From an uncultured Eubacteriales bacterium (GTDB lineage: Bacteria > Bacillota > Clostridia > Oscillospirales > Oscillospiraceae): a stretch of DNA of 64,000 nucleotides. Where the stretch lies: contig ONGR01000009.1 of NCBI GenBank assembly GCA_900317425.1, positions 1 to 64,000 of the forward strand, given 5' to 3'. The notes below the pieces were generated by a model. That model was not told where the DNA came from. It ran no database searches and was given only the letters and a program-made list of their open reading frames with translations. Positions 12,033 through 47,228 of this stretch are shown here, piece after piece. Every line of letters begins with the position of its first letter. Position 1 is the stretch's first letter. The position numbers and the translations under genes were made by a program.

Positions 12033-12076
12033 CTCCCCGGAACCCCAAAACGGAACTCCGGCACCCCCAAAACCGC

Positions 12077-12114
12077 CAGCAGGACGGGCCCTCGCCCGTC
12101 CTGCTGTTTATTTT
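12077..12114 (+). repeat. Direct repeat copy 1: pnp terminator
   Basis: 38-bp sequence identical to 13072-13109. It contains the 13-bp terminator stem CAGCAGGACGGGC / GCCCGTCCTGCTG (12077-12089, 12094-12106) and TTTATTTT. It terminates pnp. Confidence 0.95.
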
Positions 12115-12368
12115 TGCGCATTTTTCTCTATAGACAGAATGGCAACGCCCTTTTTTCGCCGTTTGTCGGCAGCAATGCCCAACAATTCGTCCGCCGAAAC
12201 GTTGTAGAGCTCGCAAAGCGCAACCAAATGCCGCAGCGGCAGCTCCGACGCCCGCCGCTCATATCTGGCGTACATCGTCTGAGACGTGTGCAGATACGCC
12301 GCAACCTGCTGCTGCGTCAAGTCATTGTCCTCCCGCAAATCCCGTAATCTGGAAATATGATCTGCCAC
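12108..12368 (-). CDS. XRE-family helix-turn-helix regulator
   Basis: 86-residue DNA-binding protein consisting of little more than a Cro/CI-type HTH (about residues 3-58: LREDNDLTQQQVAAYLHTSQ, then YARYERRASELPLRHL and a LYNVSADELLG cap). Both possible starts are GTG; 12368 is preferred because GGGAGG lies 8 nt upstream, whereas GTG 12377 overlaps that site. It is divergent from the zinc-ribbon gene, and two palindromes lie in the shared control region, so it probably regulates both. Codon use is less GC-biased than the neighbours. The two genes sit between duplicated terminators. Confidence 0.85.
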   Translation of the reverse strand: MADHISRLRDLREDNDLTQQQVAAYLHTSQTMYARYERRASELPLRHLVALCELYNVSADELLGIAADKRRKKGVAILSIEKNAQK

Positions 12369-12407
12369 CGGGTACACCTCCCTGCTTTTATGGGTGTAGT
12401 GTACCCC

Positions 12408-12423
12408 AGTAAATATTTTTACT
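12408..12423. promoter_or_regulatory. XRE operator half-perfect site 1
   Basis: AGTAAATATTTTTACT, an imperfect palindrome sharing the AGTAAA...TTTACT arms with the stronger site at 12430-12451. Confidence 0.6.
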
Positions 12424-12424
12424 A

Positions 12425-12453
12425 TTGACTTTAGTAAATATATTTACTAAACT
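12425..12453 (+). promoter_or_regulatory. Promoter of the zinc-ribbon gene
   Basis: TTGACT (12425-12430), 17-bp spacer, TAAACT (12448-12453). The spacer is almost entirely the palindromic operator. Confidence 0.7.
12430..12451. promoter_or_regulatory. XRE operator site 2
   Basis: Perfect 22-bp palindrome with arms TTTAGTAAATA / TATTTACTAAA. It occupies the spacer of the rightward promoter, so binding would block the zinc-ribbon gene. Confidence 0.8.
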
Positions 12454-12502
12454 GAATTGGCAAGCTATGTCTTGCCTATGAAATCAAGAAAGGAGAAGAA
12501 AA

Positions 12503-13054
12503 ATGGCAACTAAACTGACGACCTGCAAGGTCTGCGGGGCGGAAATGGCTTCCAGTGCGAAATCCTGCCCGAAATGCGGGGCCAAAAACAAGAAACCGAT
12601 CTATAAAAAGTGGTGGCTCTATCTGCTCATTCTCGTCGCTGTCATCGCTGCGATTGCCGGCGGATCGGGCAATTCCGGGAGCAAGCCCACTCCTGCCAAG
12701 CCGGATAATACCCCGGCGGAGCCCACCATCGAGTATGTGCACTATAACGTAACCGATCTGTTTGATGCCTTATCCGACAACCCACTGAAAGCGCAGAAGG
12801 ATTTTAAAGGCCAGTATGTGGAGCTCGAGGGCTTCCTCGGCACCATCGACAGCGACGGTAAGTATATCGGCGTCGGCGCGAATCCGAATGATTATTCCTA
12901 CCTCCTCAAAGATGTTCTTTGCTACATCCAGAACGATGAGCAGCTGGAGCAAATCATGGAGATGAGCAAGGACGACCCCATCGTTGTCCGCGGAAAAATC
13001 ACCGATGTCGGCGAGATCTTGGGCTATAAGCTCAAGATCGACAGCATCAACTGA
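12503..13054 (+). CDS. Zinc-ribbon membrane-anchored protein with OB-like domain
   Basis: 183 residues. An N-terminal zinc ribbon (Cys8, 11, 22, 25) is followed by a basic patch (KKPIYKKWW), one transmembrane helix (about 37-54), a Gly/Ser/Pro-rich linker and a C-terminal domain (about 80-183) resembling the tRNA_anti-like OB fold found in many uncharacterised bacterial proteins (FKGQYVELEGFLGTID ... DDPIVVRGKITDV). The function is unknown. It is transcribed away from the XRE regulator and ends before the duplicated terminator at 13072. RBS AAAGGAGAAG precedes ATG 12503. Confidence 0.75.
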   Translation: MATKLTTCKVCGAEMASSAKSCPKCGAKNKKPIYKKWWLYLLILVAVIAAIAGGSGNSGSKPTPAKPDNTPAEPTIEYVHYNVTDLFDALSDNPLKAQKDFKGQYVELEGFLGTIDSDGKYIGVGANPNDYSYLLKDVLCYIQNDEQLEQIMEMSKDDPIVVRGKITDVGEILGYKLKIDSIN

Positions 13055-13071
13055 ATTCCGTATCTCCCACC

Positions 13072-13109
13072 CAGCAGGACGGGCCCTCGCCCGTCCTGCT
13101 GTTTATTTT
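13072..13109 (+). repeat. Direct repeat copy 2: duplicated pnp terminator
   Basis: Identical over 38 bp to 12077-12114, 995 bp downstream. Here it terminates the zinc-ribbon gene. Confidence 0.95.
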
Positions 13110-19303: not shown

Positions 19304-19450
19304 CCTGACAAGCTGTCGCTTGTCAGAAACAAACGCAGGAACATGGCTCCATGTTCCTGCGTTTGCGTTCATAAAACGTGAAGAGGGGACTCCCATCCCC
19401 TCTTCACAATCTCCCCATGCACGGGAGAGAGTTTTCCCTCTATTTCGTAT
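19304..19450 (-). repeat. Structured dispersed repeat R2, copy 1
   Basis: Non-coding. Two variable hairpins (GACAAGC/GCTTGTC near 19308-19325; a 16-bp stem at about 19332-19367) are followed by a conserved block 19371-19420 shared almost base for base with 47110-47159. That block contains a 12-bp hairpin GTGAAGAGGGGA / TCCCCTCTTCAC and ends AATCTCCCCATGC. The spacer 19197-19468 holds nothing else except the terminator. Confidence 0.85.
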
Positions 19451-35555: not shown

Positions 35556-35972
35556 ATGAATATCGCCATCATCGCCCACGACAACAAAAAAGAGCTGATG
35601 GTCCAGTTCTGCACCGCCTATTGCGGCATTCTGGCGCGCCACACCCTCTGCGCCACCGCCACTACCGGCCAGCAGATTGCCGAGGCCACAGGTTTGAACA
35701 TCCACCGTTTCCTGTCCTTTACCCACGGCGGCGGACAGCAGATCGCCGCCCGCATCGCCTACAACGAGATCGATCTGGTCCTCTGCTTCCATGACCCCGC
35801 CGCCAAGACCCTCCACGAGGATATCCTCTATATCGCCCGGCTGTGCGATCAGAACAACATCCCCTTCGCCAGCAACGTGGCCACCGCCGAGATGCTGATC
35901 CTGGGGCTGGCACGGGGCGATCTGGACTGGCGCGACATCGTCAACCCCAAGACCAAGCCCTTTACCGCTTGA
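35556..35972 (+). CDS. Methylglyoxal synthase-like protein lacking the catalytic Asp
   Basis: 138-residue MGS-fold protein related to MgsA, which makes methylglyoxal from dihydroxyacetone phosphate. Family landmarks are present: IAIIAHDNKK (3-12), ATATTGQQI (33-41), CFHDP (77-81), the His87 and NIPFASNVATAEM. The loop that reads GGDQQ in E. coli MgsA is GGGQQ here (58-62), so Gly60 replaces catalytic Asp71. Activity may be lost or changed. RBS AAAGGAGG precedes ATG 35556. Its last 21 bp, including the stop, are repeated at 36179. Confidence 0.85.
   Translation: MNIAIIAHDNKKELMVQFCTAYCGILARHTLCATATTGQQIAEATGLNIHRFLSFTHGGGQQIAARIAYNEIDLVLCFHDPAAKTLHEDILYIARLCDQNNIPFASNVATAEMLILGLARGDLDWRDIVNPKTKPFTA
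35952..35972 (+). repeat. Direct repeat copy 1: mgsA-like gene 3' end
   Basis: The 21-bp end of the gene including TGA is identical to 36179-36199. Together they bracket R1 copy 2. Confidence 0.9.
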
Positions 35973-35977
35973 GTCCC

Positions 35978-36155
35978 TCAAAAAATGGCGCTGCCATTTT
36001 TTGAAAAGGGCTTGCAGTCCGCTCCGCGCACTCGCTTATGTGAGGCGCTCGCACACTGCGCGGCCTGATCTGTGTTTTTTCTGACGCACATGTCGTCAGA
36101 AAAAACGATTTGACTTCTTCCGTCGCTGCGGCGACGGAACTCTGCGAGGCTTTCT
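35978..36155 (+). repeat. Structured dispersed repeat R1, copy 2
   Basis: Hairpin A: TCAAAAAATGGC (35978-35989) with GCCATTTTTTGA (35993-36004). Hairpin B: 36074-36086 with 36094-36106. Hairpin C: TTCCGTCGC (36118-36126) with GCGACGGAA (36131-36139). Relative to copy 1, the stems differ in paired fashion while loops and linkers such as CTGACGCACATGTCGTCAG and GCGCACTCG stay the same. Confidence 0.85.
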
Positions 36156-36178
36156 TTTGGTGACAATCGTTCTACCGA

Positions 36179-36199
36179 ACCAAGCCCTTTACCGCTTGA
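36179..36199 (+). repeat. Direct repeat copy 2, overlapping the hisS promoter
   Basis: Identical to 35952-35972. Its last four bases are the TTGA of the hisS -35 box. Confidence 0.9.
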
Positions 36200-38034: not shown

Positions 38035-39813
38035 ATGATGCAAATGCGTACACATACCTGCAACGAGCTGCGCCTTGGCGACGTGGGCAAGCAGGTGAAG
38101 CTGGTGGGCTGGATGGAAAACGTCCGGGAGGTAGGCAGCAACTTCGCCTTCGTGGTGCTGCGTGACTTCTACGGCACCACCCAGATCGTCATCGAGAGCG
38201 AGGACATGATGGCCGCCATCCGGGACGTGAACAAGGAGTCCACCATCTCCGTGGAGGGCGTGGTCCGGGAGCGCTCCAGCAAGAACCCCAAGCAGGACAC
38301 CGGCGAGATCGAGGTGGTGCCCCACAAGATCGAGGTGCTGGGCCGCTGCCGCTACAACAGCCTGCCCTTCGAGATCAACCGCAGCCGGGAGGCCGACGAG
38401 ACCGCCCGTCTGAAGTACCGGTATCTGGATCTGCGCAACCCCGCCGTGAAGAACAACATCATCCTGCGCTGCCAGGTGGTGGCCGCCATCCGCGCCGCCA
38501 TGACCGACCACGGCTTCCTGGAGATCACCACTCCCATCCTGACCGCCAGCTCCCCCGAGGGCGCCCGTGACTATCTGGTGCCCGCCCGGAAGCATCCCGG
38601 CAAGTTCTACGCCCTGCCCCAGGCTCCCCAGCAGTTCAAGCAGCTGCTGATGACCTCCGGCTTCGACCGCTATTTCCAGATCGCCCCCTGCTTCCGTGAT
38701 GAGGACGCCCGTGGCGACCGCTCCCCAGGCGAGTTCTATCAGCTGGATATGGAGATGGCCTTCGCCACCCAGGACGACGTGTTCGCCGTGCTGGAGGACG
38801 TGTTCCCGCCCATCTTCGCCAAGTACGGCAAGTACAGCGTGGCCTCCTCCGCCCCCTTCCGCCGCATCGCCTACAACGACGCCATGGAGATCTACGGCTC
38901 CGACAAGCCGGATCTGCGCATCGACCTGGTGTGTCAGGATATCAGCGAGATCGTGAAGGGCTGCGGCTTCGAGCCCATCGACGGCCAGGTGGTCAAGGCC
39001 GTGGTGGTGAAGGACTGCAAGCTGGCCCGCAAGGCCATCGACAAGATCTGCACCGAGGTGGAGGTCCAGACCGCCAACAAGCCCTTCTGGTTCAAGCTGG
39101 ATGAGAACGGCGAGCTGGCGGGCGGCATCGCCAAGTTCCTGGGCGGCTGCAAGGAGCAGCTCATCGAGAAGCTGGGTCTGGTGCCCGGCGCCTTCGTGGG
39201 CGTGGCCGCCGGCAAGAAGGAGCTGGCCCAGAAGGCCGCCGGCGTGCTGCGCAACAAGCTGGGCGCGGCCTGCGAGGGCCACATGGACGCCGAGCGCTAT
39301 GAGTTCTGCTGGATCGTGGACTTCCCCATGTACGAGATCGGTGAGGAGTCCGGCGAGCTGGAGTTCTGCCACAACCCCTTCTCCATGCCCAGCGGCGGCA
39401 TGGACACCCTGCTGAAGGCCGAGAGGGGCGAGATCGATCCGCTGGATATCTACGCCGACCAGTACGACCTGGTGTGCAACGGCGTGGAGCTGAGCTCCGG
39501 CGCCGTCCGGAACCACGATCCCGAGATCATGATCAAGGCCTTCGAGATGGTGGGTCTGGGCGAGGAGGACGTGAAGAAGAAGTTCCCCGCCATGTACAAC
39601 GCCTTCTGCTACGGTGCGCCTCCCCACGCCGGCATCGCCCCGGGCGTGGACCGCATCGTCATGCTGCTGGCCGGCGAGAGCTCCATCCGTGAGATCATCC
39701 CGTTCCCCATGAACAAGAACGCCCAGGACGTGATGATGGGCGCCCCCTCCACCGTGGAGCAGAAGCAGTTGGATGAGCTGCACATCGCTCTGGTGGGCGA
39801 GCTGGAGGAGTAA
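38035..39813 (+). CDS. aspS: Aspartyl-tRNA synthetase
   Basis: 592-residue class IIb synthetase of the bacterial type. N-terminal OB-fold anticodon domain (about 1-110), catalytic core with motif 2 FRDEDARGDRSPGEFYQLD, the GAD insertion domain (about 300-420) and motif 3 GIAPGVDRIVMLLAG. ATG 38035 (ATG 38038 also possible) follows AAAAGGAGAG. Whether it also charges tRNA-Asn cannot be told from the sequence. The last 109 bp of the gene are duplicated at 39996-40104. Confidence 0.95.
   Translation: MMQMRTHTCNELRLGDVGKQVKLVGWMENVREVGSNFAFVVLRDFYGTTQIVIESEDMMAAIRDVNKESTISVEGVVRERSSKNPKQDTGEIEVVPHKIEVLGRCRYNSLPFEINRSREADETARLKYRYLDLRNPAVKNNIILRCQVVAAIRAAMTDHGFLEITTPILTASSPEGARDYLVPARKHPGKFYALPQAPQQFKQLLMTSGFDRYFQIAPCFRDEDARGDRSPGEFYQLDMEMAFATQDDVFAVLEDVFPPIFAKYGKYSVASSAPFRRIAYNDAMEIYGSDKPDLRIDLVCQDISEIVKGCGFEPIDGQVVKAVVVKDCKLARKAIDKICTEVEVQTANKPFWFKLDENGELAGGIAKFLGGCKEQLIEKLGLVPGAFVGVAAGKKELAQKAAGVLRNKLGAACEGHMDAERYEFCWIVDFPMYEIGEESGELEFCHNPFSMPSGGMDTLLKAERGEIDPLDIYADQYDLVCNGVELSSGAVRNHDPEIMIKAFEMVGLGEEDVKKKFPAMYNAFCYGAPPHAGIAPGVDRIVMLLAGESSIREIIPFPMNKNAQDVMMGAPSTVEQKQLDELHIALVGELEE
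39705..39813 (+). repeat. Direct repeat copy 1: aspS 3' end
   Basis: The last 109 bp of aspS with TAA. The copy at 39996-40104 differs by one synonymous base (GAT to GAC in the LDEL segment). Confidence 0.97.
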
Positions 39814-39995
39814 CCCTTCTCCCGGGCCAAAGCGATTCCTTTCACCACAAGAAAAGGCGCTCCGCCGCCTTTTCTTGTATGGGGAATGCCCACGTTGCGC
39901 CATGCCGGTTTCCAGCCCCTTCGGGGCGTGAAAACCGGGGCGCTGCCTTGCGGCGGGCACGCTTTTTCCGCCACCGGCGGCGCTGTGCCCGCACG
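39814..39995 (+). mobile_element. 182-bp structured insert R3 between aspS-end repeats
   Basis: Non-coding, three hairpin groups. ACAAGAAAAGGCG (39847-39859) with CGCCTTTTCTTGT (39866-39878), 13 bp perfect. CCGGTTTCC...GCCCC-TTC-GGGGC...AAAACCGG across 39905-39938. GCGGGCAC (39953-39960) with GTGCCCGC (39985-39992), enclosing CCGCC / GGCGG. It carries no gene. Flanking 109-bp duplication implies insertion. No second copy of R3 is in the window. Confidence 0.75.
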
Positions 39996-40104
39996 CCCCA
40001 TGAACAAGAACGCCCAGGACGTGATGATGGGCGCCCCCTCCACCGTGGAGCAGAAGCAGTTGGACGAGCTGCACATCGCTCTGGTGGGCGAGCTGGAGGA
40101 GTAA
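39996..40104 (+). pseudogene. Duplicated aspS 3' fragment
   Basis: Second copy of the aspS end. It encodes the last 35 aspS codons and the stop in frame but lacks a credible start; an ATG at 39886 in the insert is in frame yet has no ribosome site. It is followed directly by the RBS AAAAAAGGAGG of the next gene, which probably followed aspS originally. Confidence 0.85.
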
Positions 40105-40122: not shown

Positions 40123-40485
40123 ATGGATGAACGCAACCGTGTCAACCCCACCCGCCTGGACTATGACGGGCCGGTAAAGCTCTACACCATCGACCACATC
40201 CCCGGCGCCGAGCTGGAGGCCCTGGGCATGGTGGAGGGTTCCGTGGTGCAGAGCAAACACATCGGCCGGGATCTGATGGCCGGTCTCAAGACCATCGTCG
40301 GCGGCGAGATCGTCGGCTACACGGAGATGCTCACTGAGGCCCGCGCCATCGCCACGGCGCGCATGGCCCGGCAGGCCGAGGCGCTGGGCGCCGACGCCGT
40401 GGTCAACGTGCGCTACAGCAGCAGCGCCATCATGGAGAGCGCCGCCGAGGTGCTGGCCTACGGCACCGCTGTGCGCATCAAGTAA
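40123..40485 (+). CDS. YbjQ/UPF0145 family protein
   Basis: 120-residue protein of the YbjQ (UPF0145) family, sometimes labelled heavy-metal-binding. It shows the conserved IVGGEIVGYTEMLTEARAIATARM block and ADAVVNVRYSSS near the C-terminus. The fold is dodecin-like and multimeric in relatives; the function is not established. RBS AAGGAGGT precedes ATG 40123. Originally next to aspS; now separated by the R3 insertion. It has its own terminator. Confidence 0.85.
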   Translation: MDERNRVNPTRLDYDGPVKLYTIDHIPGAELEALGMVEGSVVQSKHIGRDLMAGLKTIVGGEIVGYTEMLTEARAIATARMARQAEALGADAVVNVRYSSSAIMESAAEVLAYGTAVRIK

Positions 40486-47012: not shown

Positions 47013-47054
47013 CGTGCAAACCAAGAAAAGCGCCCTGCGAATGCAGGGCGCTTT
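47013..47054 (-). repeat. Direct repeat copy of rnhA terminator (distal)
   Basis: 42 bp identical to 47187-47228, holding the stem AAAGCGCCCTGC / GCAGGGCGCTTT. A partial third copy of CAAGAAAAGCGCC lies just to the left at about 46999-47011. Confidence 0.92.
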
Positions 47055-47186
47055 TGCCCCGCTGCGGGGCAAAAGCGCAAATGCAGAAAAACGTTTCTGC
47101 ATTTGCATCTATAAAACGTGAAGAGGGGACTCCCATCCCCTCTTCACAATCTCCCCATGCTCTGTGCGAGCTTTCCGTTCTGCTGT
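47055..47186 (-). mobile_element. Structured repeat R2, copy 2, between terminator duplicates
   Basis: 132 bp. Variable hairpin GCCCCGC / GCGGGGC (with AAAA), variable hairpin GCAAATGCAGAAA / TTTCTGCATTTGC, then the conserved 50-bp block 47110-47159 shared with R2 copy 1 and containing GTGAAGAGGGGA / TCCCCTCTTCAC. Flanked exactly by the 42-bp direct repeat. No gene; 46936-47351 otherwise holds only terminators. Confidence 0.85.
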
Positions 47187-47228
47187 CGTGCAAACCAAGA
47201 AAAGCGCCCTGCGAATGCAGGGCGCTTT
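47187..47228 (-). repeat. Direct repeat copy: rnhA-proximal terminator
   Basis: Identical to 47013-47054. On the minus strand the hairpin is followed by CTTTTCTTGG, so it can end rnhA transcription. Confidence 0.92.

Follow-up and report, generated by a model that had tools for sequence, protein, structure and literature searches.

Integrative elements with gene-restoring att sites use tRNA and gene 3′ ends. The aspS element described here, a member of a family that we term the H-core, resembles them in its conserved targets, in restoring the gene on one side with the displaced end on the opposite side, and in a repeat that stops at a gene boundary; it differs from them in carrying neither an integrase gene nor cargo, in having one hairpin type for many unrelated targets, and in lying antisense at tRNA 5′ ends. 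Its likeness to integron attC sites extends only to a structure-conserved hairpin.

Three further systems bear on the comparison. Fungal mitochondrial mobile ORFs (Allomyces and Glomus), as described in excerpts of PMC3630166, carry an endonuclease ORF and give rise to a C-terminal duplication, with atp6 tails that are 63.5% alike. As set out in those excerpts, they share with the H-core the 3′ end of an essential gene as target, an intact hybrid gene upstream, a native tail displaced downstream, and a foreign carried tail; unlike them, the H-core is non-coding, measures about 150 bp, and has tails that are mostly 90–100% alike (PMC3630166). IS1549 and IS1634 are flanked by long, variable direct repeats of 8–514 bp, for which the excerpted account names no known mechanism (PMC2266710); H-core repeats are likewise long and variable, but the H-core has no conserved left end in 24 junctions and its repeats follow gene boundaries. 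IS1272, of the IS1182 family, was reported to replace a stem-loop without duplicating it, and duplication is given only as a possibility in the excerpted text (PMC5678879).

The duplicated end of aspS

The window is a stretch of 64,000 nucleotides from the draft genome of an uncultured Eubacteriales bacterium (39 contigs, 96% complete), which we refer to as G000. The genus comparison set comprises 32 genus genomes, labelled G000 onward, and L numbers denote fetched loci. A scan of the window for direct repeats (exact 18-bp seeds, spacing 60–1500 bp) returned four, located at aspS, mgsA (21 bp), rnhA (42 bp), and pnp (39 bp).

The aspS gene (38035–39813; this and all other features of the locus are on the + strand) is intact, is identified by NCBIfam with an E value of 3e-213, over the cut-off, and ends in the left copy of a 109-bp direct repeat (39705–39813, through the stop codon TAA). 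The right copy, a remnant as judged from comparison of loci, occupies 39996–40104, directly 5′ of the ribosome site of the next gene. Sequence comparison bears out the preliminary description of a 109-bp match with one synonymous change: the single T/C difference falls in column 69 counted from 0 (39774/40065), in a GAT/GAC (Asp) codon. That description also placed the second copy correctly with respect to the ribosome site, but its proposal that the junction between aspS and the next gene is retained on both sides does not hold: the junction is kept on the right only, and the insert follows the left copy. The downstream gene (40123–40485) is termed YbjQ-like; in NCBIfam it matches hypothetical-protein models, below their cut-offs, and "ybjQ" is a weak label on this basis.

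The 182-bp spacer between the tails comprises a terminator-like hairpin followed by further hairpin groups. Specifically, folding and comparison with G016, a genome of the same genus, delimit a variable left part (39814–39886) that includes the terminator-like hairpin (39847–39878), which is common to the G000 and G016 inserts, while family comparison delimits the H-core element (39887–39995), which consists of an inner hairpin group and a terminal hairpin, H2 (core motif 39960–39984), and ends beside CCCC. The insert folds with an MFE of −89.6 (z −3.6), and 0 of 200 shuffles are equally stable.

G016 has the same order as G000: aspS, tail, terminator and element, tail, next gene. Twelve of the 14 other genus loci show the aspS tail, once each; with up to three mismatches allowed, no core lies between this tail and the next gene in any of the 12 (in 3 of them, a loose core match lies elsewhere in the locus). 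In G030, G029, G005, G022, G012, and G028, the aspS tail is followed by a short gap and directly by the next gene; in the remaining one-tail relatives, different sequence lies between aspS and the next gene. A doubled aspS tail lacking the insert is found at none of the loci of the 12 relatives.

The gene downstream of aspS in G000 aligns from its first residue only with its counterparts in G016, G012, G022, and G028, best with G016 (86%). The whole of this gene (40123–40485) can be aligned with the G016 clade, and the G000 aspS tail is closer to those of G005, G030, and G029; the aspS locus of G000 may be mosaic in origin.

A dispersed hairpin family at gene and tRNA ends

Judged from family comparison, 39887–39995 is a member of a dispersed, structured family. 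The core pattern, which represents the last hairpin, is matched exactly at 114 places in 25 of the 32 genus genomes (reversed control, 0); it also matches at least 119 stretches in named genomes and 24 stretches in viral contigs. The 80 matches listed by title are mostly from Oscillospiraceae and other Clostridia, with a few among them that are probably unrelated, e.g. one from a Mycobacterium. No Rfam family matches the H-core at gathering score, and a narrow search of open-licence literature found no description of the family.

In an alignment of 58 copies picked from 139 non-redundant ones (the 81 left out being chiefly unlike subtypes), 20 of 29 stem pairs have compensatory changes. Since G–T combinations are not above A–C combinations (22 versus 28 among 1276 cells, in 22 of the covariation-tested stem pairs), the pattern suggests that H-core pairing is kept in DNA rather than in RNA. 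In the 24 junctions looked at, there is no conserved left end. The flanks were considered as the source of the variable left part, but the match is not convincing (7 of 24 scored 1–3 above the best of ten shuffles, both strands). Orientation relative to replication, inferred from GC skew, shows no strand bias (55:48, 11:15, and 32:50; lowest p 0.06).

According to the preliminary description, hairpin elements insert at gene 3′ ends and duplicate them, and this arrangement does recur. Seventeen of the 87 genus copies that have enough flank (of 93) carry a direct repeat that begins where the H-core ends on the right, versus a mean of 1.5 in 20 partner shuffles; so do 17 of the 89 copies from other genomes that have usable flank (of 124), versus 0.7 in 10 shuffles. 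These counts include G012, G016, G022, and G028, where many copies lie among other repeats and flank repeats have other causes. In the pool of genus set, other genomes, and L041, with doubles removed, the repeat is present in 33 of 172 copies, and the other 139 have no detectable repeat.

Protein-gene 3′ ends make up 13 of the 33 repeats (aspS, 2; metG, 5; ileS, 2; secA, 2; cdd, 1; pgk, 1). These repeats are 16–109 bp long and enclose non-coding inserts of about 130–180 bp, and in nine of the 13 cases a stop codon lies within 2 nt of the repeat end; the repeat in G031 overshoots the stop by 11 bp. NCBIfam supplies the names for both secA examples and for single examples of aspS, metG, cdd, ileS, and pgk; only aspS and cdd are over the cut-off, most of the examples being partial genes and hence below whole-protein cut-offs. 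The remaining metG and ileS cases were named from their C-termini. Another 12 repeats overlap tRNAs (Leu, 5; Pro, 6; Ser, 1), 11 of them antisense, such that the boundary reached is the tRNA 5′ end; of the 12, eight stop 0–6 nt after the tRNA, two overshoot it by 16 and 25 bp, and two stop within it. The other eight repeats lie away from gene ends (L157, L321, L100, L093, L188, L159, L193, and L299). G000 itself has five core matches, three of which are gene-end cases (aspS, metG, and pgk).

The same sites are filled repeatedly. The metG site is used five times (G000, G024, G026, L222, and L301, the last two in genomes outside the genus set), by elements that differ in sequence, although G024 and L222 have an H2 arm in common. 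Within the genus, 3 of 30 metG loci are filled and 26 are empty; in G027, the site holds 12 bp and the final six tail bases, which reads as a deletion scar. None of the 26 empty loci has a doubled tail; in G002, the next gene contains a partial match of 19 nt. At ileS, an element is present in 2 of 28 loci. The ileS locus of G031 (L215) contains three successive ileS tail copies, the outermost of which adjoins native-looking downstream sequence, apparently through two rounds of insertion.

At pgk, the H-core occupies the same site in G000 and G025 (30 loci). The pgk genes of G024 (L592), G012 (L572), G016 (L575), and G022 (L576) have tail repeats of 15–31 nt around hairpin-rich inserts of 147–161 bp that are unlike in sequence and contain neither an H-core nor an mgsA-type element; these are possibly further kinds of element at the same gene end. 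A doubled tail in the absence of the insert, which the preliminary description named as a refuting result, is found neither at aspS (12 loci) nor at metG (26 of 30 loci empty); at pgk, however, 4 of 30 loci have tail repeats around sequence that contains no H-core, indicating that pgk tail repeats are not bound to the H-core family alone.

The mgsA, rnhA, and pnp inserts

The preliminary description placed the aspS, mgsA, pnp, and rnhA inserts in one class. Our comparison separates them: the mgsA insert is an IS1182-type MITE, and at rnhA and pnp it is terminators that are repeated, around two other inserts.

The mgsA gene is confirmed by PRK05234, over the cut-off, and its insert (35973–36178, + strand) lies between 21-bp tail copies at 35952–35972 and 36179–36199. 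Family comparison assigns it to elements of about 204 bp with imperfect terminal inverted repeats, with 22 matches in G000 and matches in 27 of 32 genomes; copies lie in the window at 35952–36199 and 2665–2830 and in L411–L500. Flanking repeats accompany 25 of the 78 copies that were fetched together with their flanks from among the better matches; shuffled controls give 0–1. By position, 18 of the 25 repeats are whole hairpins, 17 of these 18 with a dG of −10 or lower; of 2000 random segments drawn from these loci, 333 reach that value. In G030, L533 encodes an IS1182-family transposase (NF033551, 397 bits; cut-off 270) within a transposon that has a similar CAGCTTGTCAAAGAA end beside a terminator hairpin (one end read). 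From these comparisons, the insert at mgsA is an IS1182-type MITE, and it duplicates stem-loops in their entirety. It is like IS1272, as presented in excerpts of PMC5678879, in its palindromic targets and in the IS1182-type transposase of relatives, and unlike IS1272 in duplicating whole stem-loops; this likeness concerns the mgsA-type element. At L433, an mgsA-type element precedes a gene that looks like truB by eye; the first 46 bp from the ATG are repeated on both sides, and the whole gene is on the right.

Downstream of pnp (12076–13109), a 39-bp terminator is present on both sides of a 956-bp insert; by eye, an insert ORF of 183 aa looks like a zinc-ribbon protein, and the other strand appears to hold a short repressor gene. 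At rnhA (47013–47228), a 42-bp terminator repeat surrounds a third hairpin element, and the 68-bp core of this element is found again at 19353–19420 (93%).

Origin of the intact end and mode of insertion

The right ileS tail of G005 is identical to that of G030 and one base off that of G029 (KLPVIE), with similar downstream sequence, and is thus native; the left tail has KIPQIAE at its end, as do G012, G016, G022, G028, and G031. On this comparison, the end of the intact left copy is clearly non-native, and, since the right copy is native, the last codons would have come with the element side. The right aspS copy of G016 is likewise native: copy and junction match relatives (G028, 97.8% over 93 nt, with similar downstream sequence), and it ends GAGGAGGAATAA, as in G012 and G022. 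The left copy of G016 ends GAGGAAGACTGA, with GAAGACTGA at the end in place of GAGGAATAA, and its last bases are probably non-native. An element-borne gene end that restores the gene is indicated at ileS in G005 and is probable at aspS in G016; the remaining loci are uninformative. The pgk gene of G000 was dropped as a candidate non-native end, since LLDK is the usual ending (25 of 30 genus loci) and the right copy in G000 looks decayed.

Across 10 of the 13 protein-gene pairs (pgk of G000 and metG of L222 and L301 excluded), left and right copies differ at 3 of 252 columns in the first half and 19 of 255 in the half containing the stop (p 0.0007). When ileS of G005 is left out, the counts are 3/228 versus 9/231 (p 0.14, not significant).

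Over 93 nt, the aspS tails are 98.9% alike within each genome (G000 and G016) and ~80% alike between genomes, and the G000 and G016 inserts are 89% alike over 153 bp, terminator included. Both aspS copies of G000 are native-like (92.5% to the nearest relative); this locus fits in-situ duplication or gene conversion just as well as a carried gene end and makes no decision between models. The earlier explanation of near-identity by a recent event or gene conversion is compatible with G000 aspS but too simple overall, given the non-native intact end at ileS of G005.

We put at about an even chance that the H-core is a non-autonomous mobile element that joins a CC-type site through its right end, while the gene is made whole again on its left. 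Specifically, H2, a DNA hairpin at the right end of the H-core, would be joined to a CC-type site 16–109 bp before the end of a conserved gene, and the left end of the H-core would settle at the gene's end, either by homology or through a carried gene end. The gene, stop codon included, would then be whole in the left copy, and the tail originally present, now interrupted, would remain on the right, the last bases of the intact copy having been supplied with the element in at least one locus and probably in two. We infer that the H-core moves as a circular or linear unit, that H2 may be recognised by its shape, and that a recombinase or transposase would be supplied in trans.

A long target-site duplication, in which a transposase cuts the strands 16–109 bp apart, the gaps are repaired, and selection maintains one whole gene copy, is possible but doubtful. 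Such a process could account for the variable repeat lengths and for the native-like, nearly identical aspS copies of G000, and has a precedent in the 8–514 bp repeats of IS1549/IS1634 reported in excerpts of PMC2266710. It sits poorly with repeats that, though ranging from 16 to 109 bp, mostly stop at the gene boundary, which random lengths would be expected to overshoot; with the lack of a conserved left end in 24 junctions; and with left ends that are non-native in ileS of G005 and probably in aspS of G016.

We regard as unlikely an explanation specific to aspS, in which the insertion is common to G000 and G016 by descent or exchange and gene conversion has kept the tails alike. Close relatives of both genomes have empty sites, and near-identical repeats also occur at lengths of 24–30 bp (metG, cdd, and secA), short for homologous conversion, even though the inserts are homologous, the tails are more alike within than between genomes, and the G000 downstream gene is best matched in G016. 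An assembly artefact is highly improbable: G000 is a draft, but G016 has the same arrangement, and many assemblies have it at other genes, with decayed copies and an apparent deletion scar.

Among ORFs within 4 kb of cores at 143 loci, no single recombinase family is regularly present, and no integrase is borne by the H-core or by a larger relative; the largest ORF family, at 7 of the 143 loci, consists of serine recombinases by eye, with 5 of the 7 in viral contigs. Remnants of integrative islands were rejected: up to 20 kb left of 26 copies, no distant gene-end copy was found, and good scores were dispersed repeats by eye. PF01797, the Y1 (HUH) transposase family, has no match in G000 (96% complete) and matches 15 of the 32 genus genomes. 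None of 20 stretches around Y1 genes contains a core, and at L337 one core lies about 12 kb from its Y1 gene; RAYT/REP and other Y1 (HUH) elements were rejected because G000 is without Y1 and cores are not beside Y1 genes. PF00078, for reverse transcriptase, has no match in G000 and matches 8 of the 32 genomes; a diversity-generating retroelement was rejected on the G000 result and on the single T/C difference between the aspS copies.

That the H-core is a new class of minimal mobile DNA, in which single-stranded hairpin cassettes are recognised by shape, in the manner of integron attC sites, by a trans-acting recombinase and enter conserved genes by exchanging gene ends, is conceivable, though we think it improbable; the H-core may, but need not, be an entirely new class of mobile element.

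The earlier idea of insertion at the 3′ end is right in kind for aspS. The H-core family enters conserved genes and tRNAs of Oscillospiraceae and other Clostridia without breaking them, and in at least one case it appears to have brought new last codons. An insertion of the aspS type separates an essential gene from the adjacent gene by a hairpin. The mgsA-type family provides sequence evidence for duplication of whole stem-loops by IS1182-type elements. With filled, empty, decayed, and multiply filled sites present in relatives, the mechanism of H-core insertion is directly testable.
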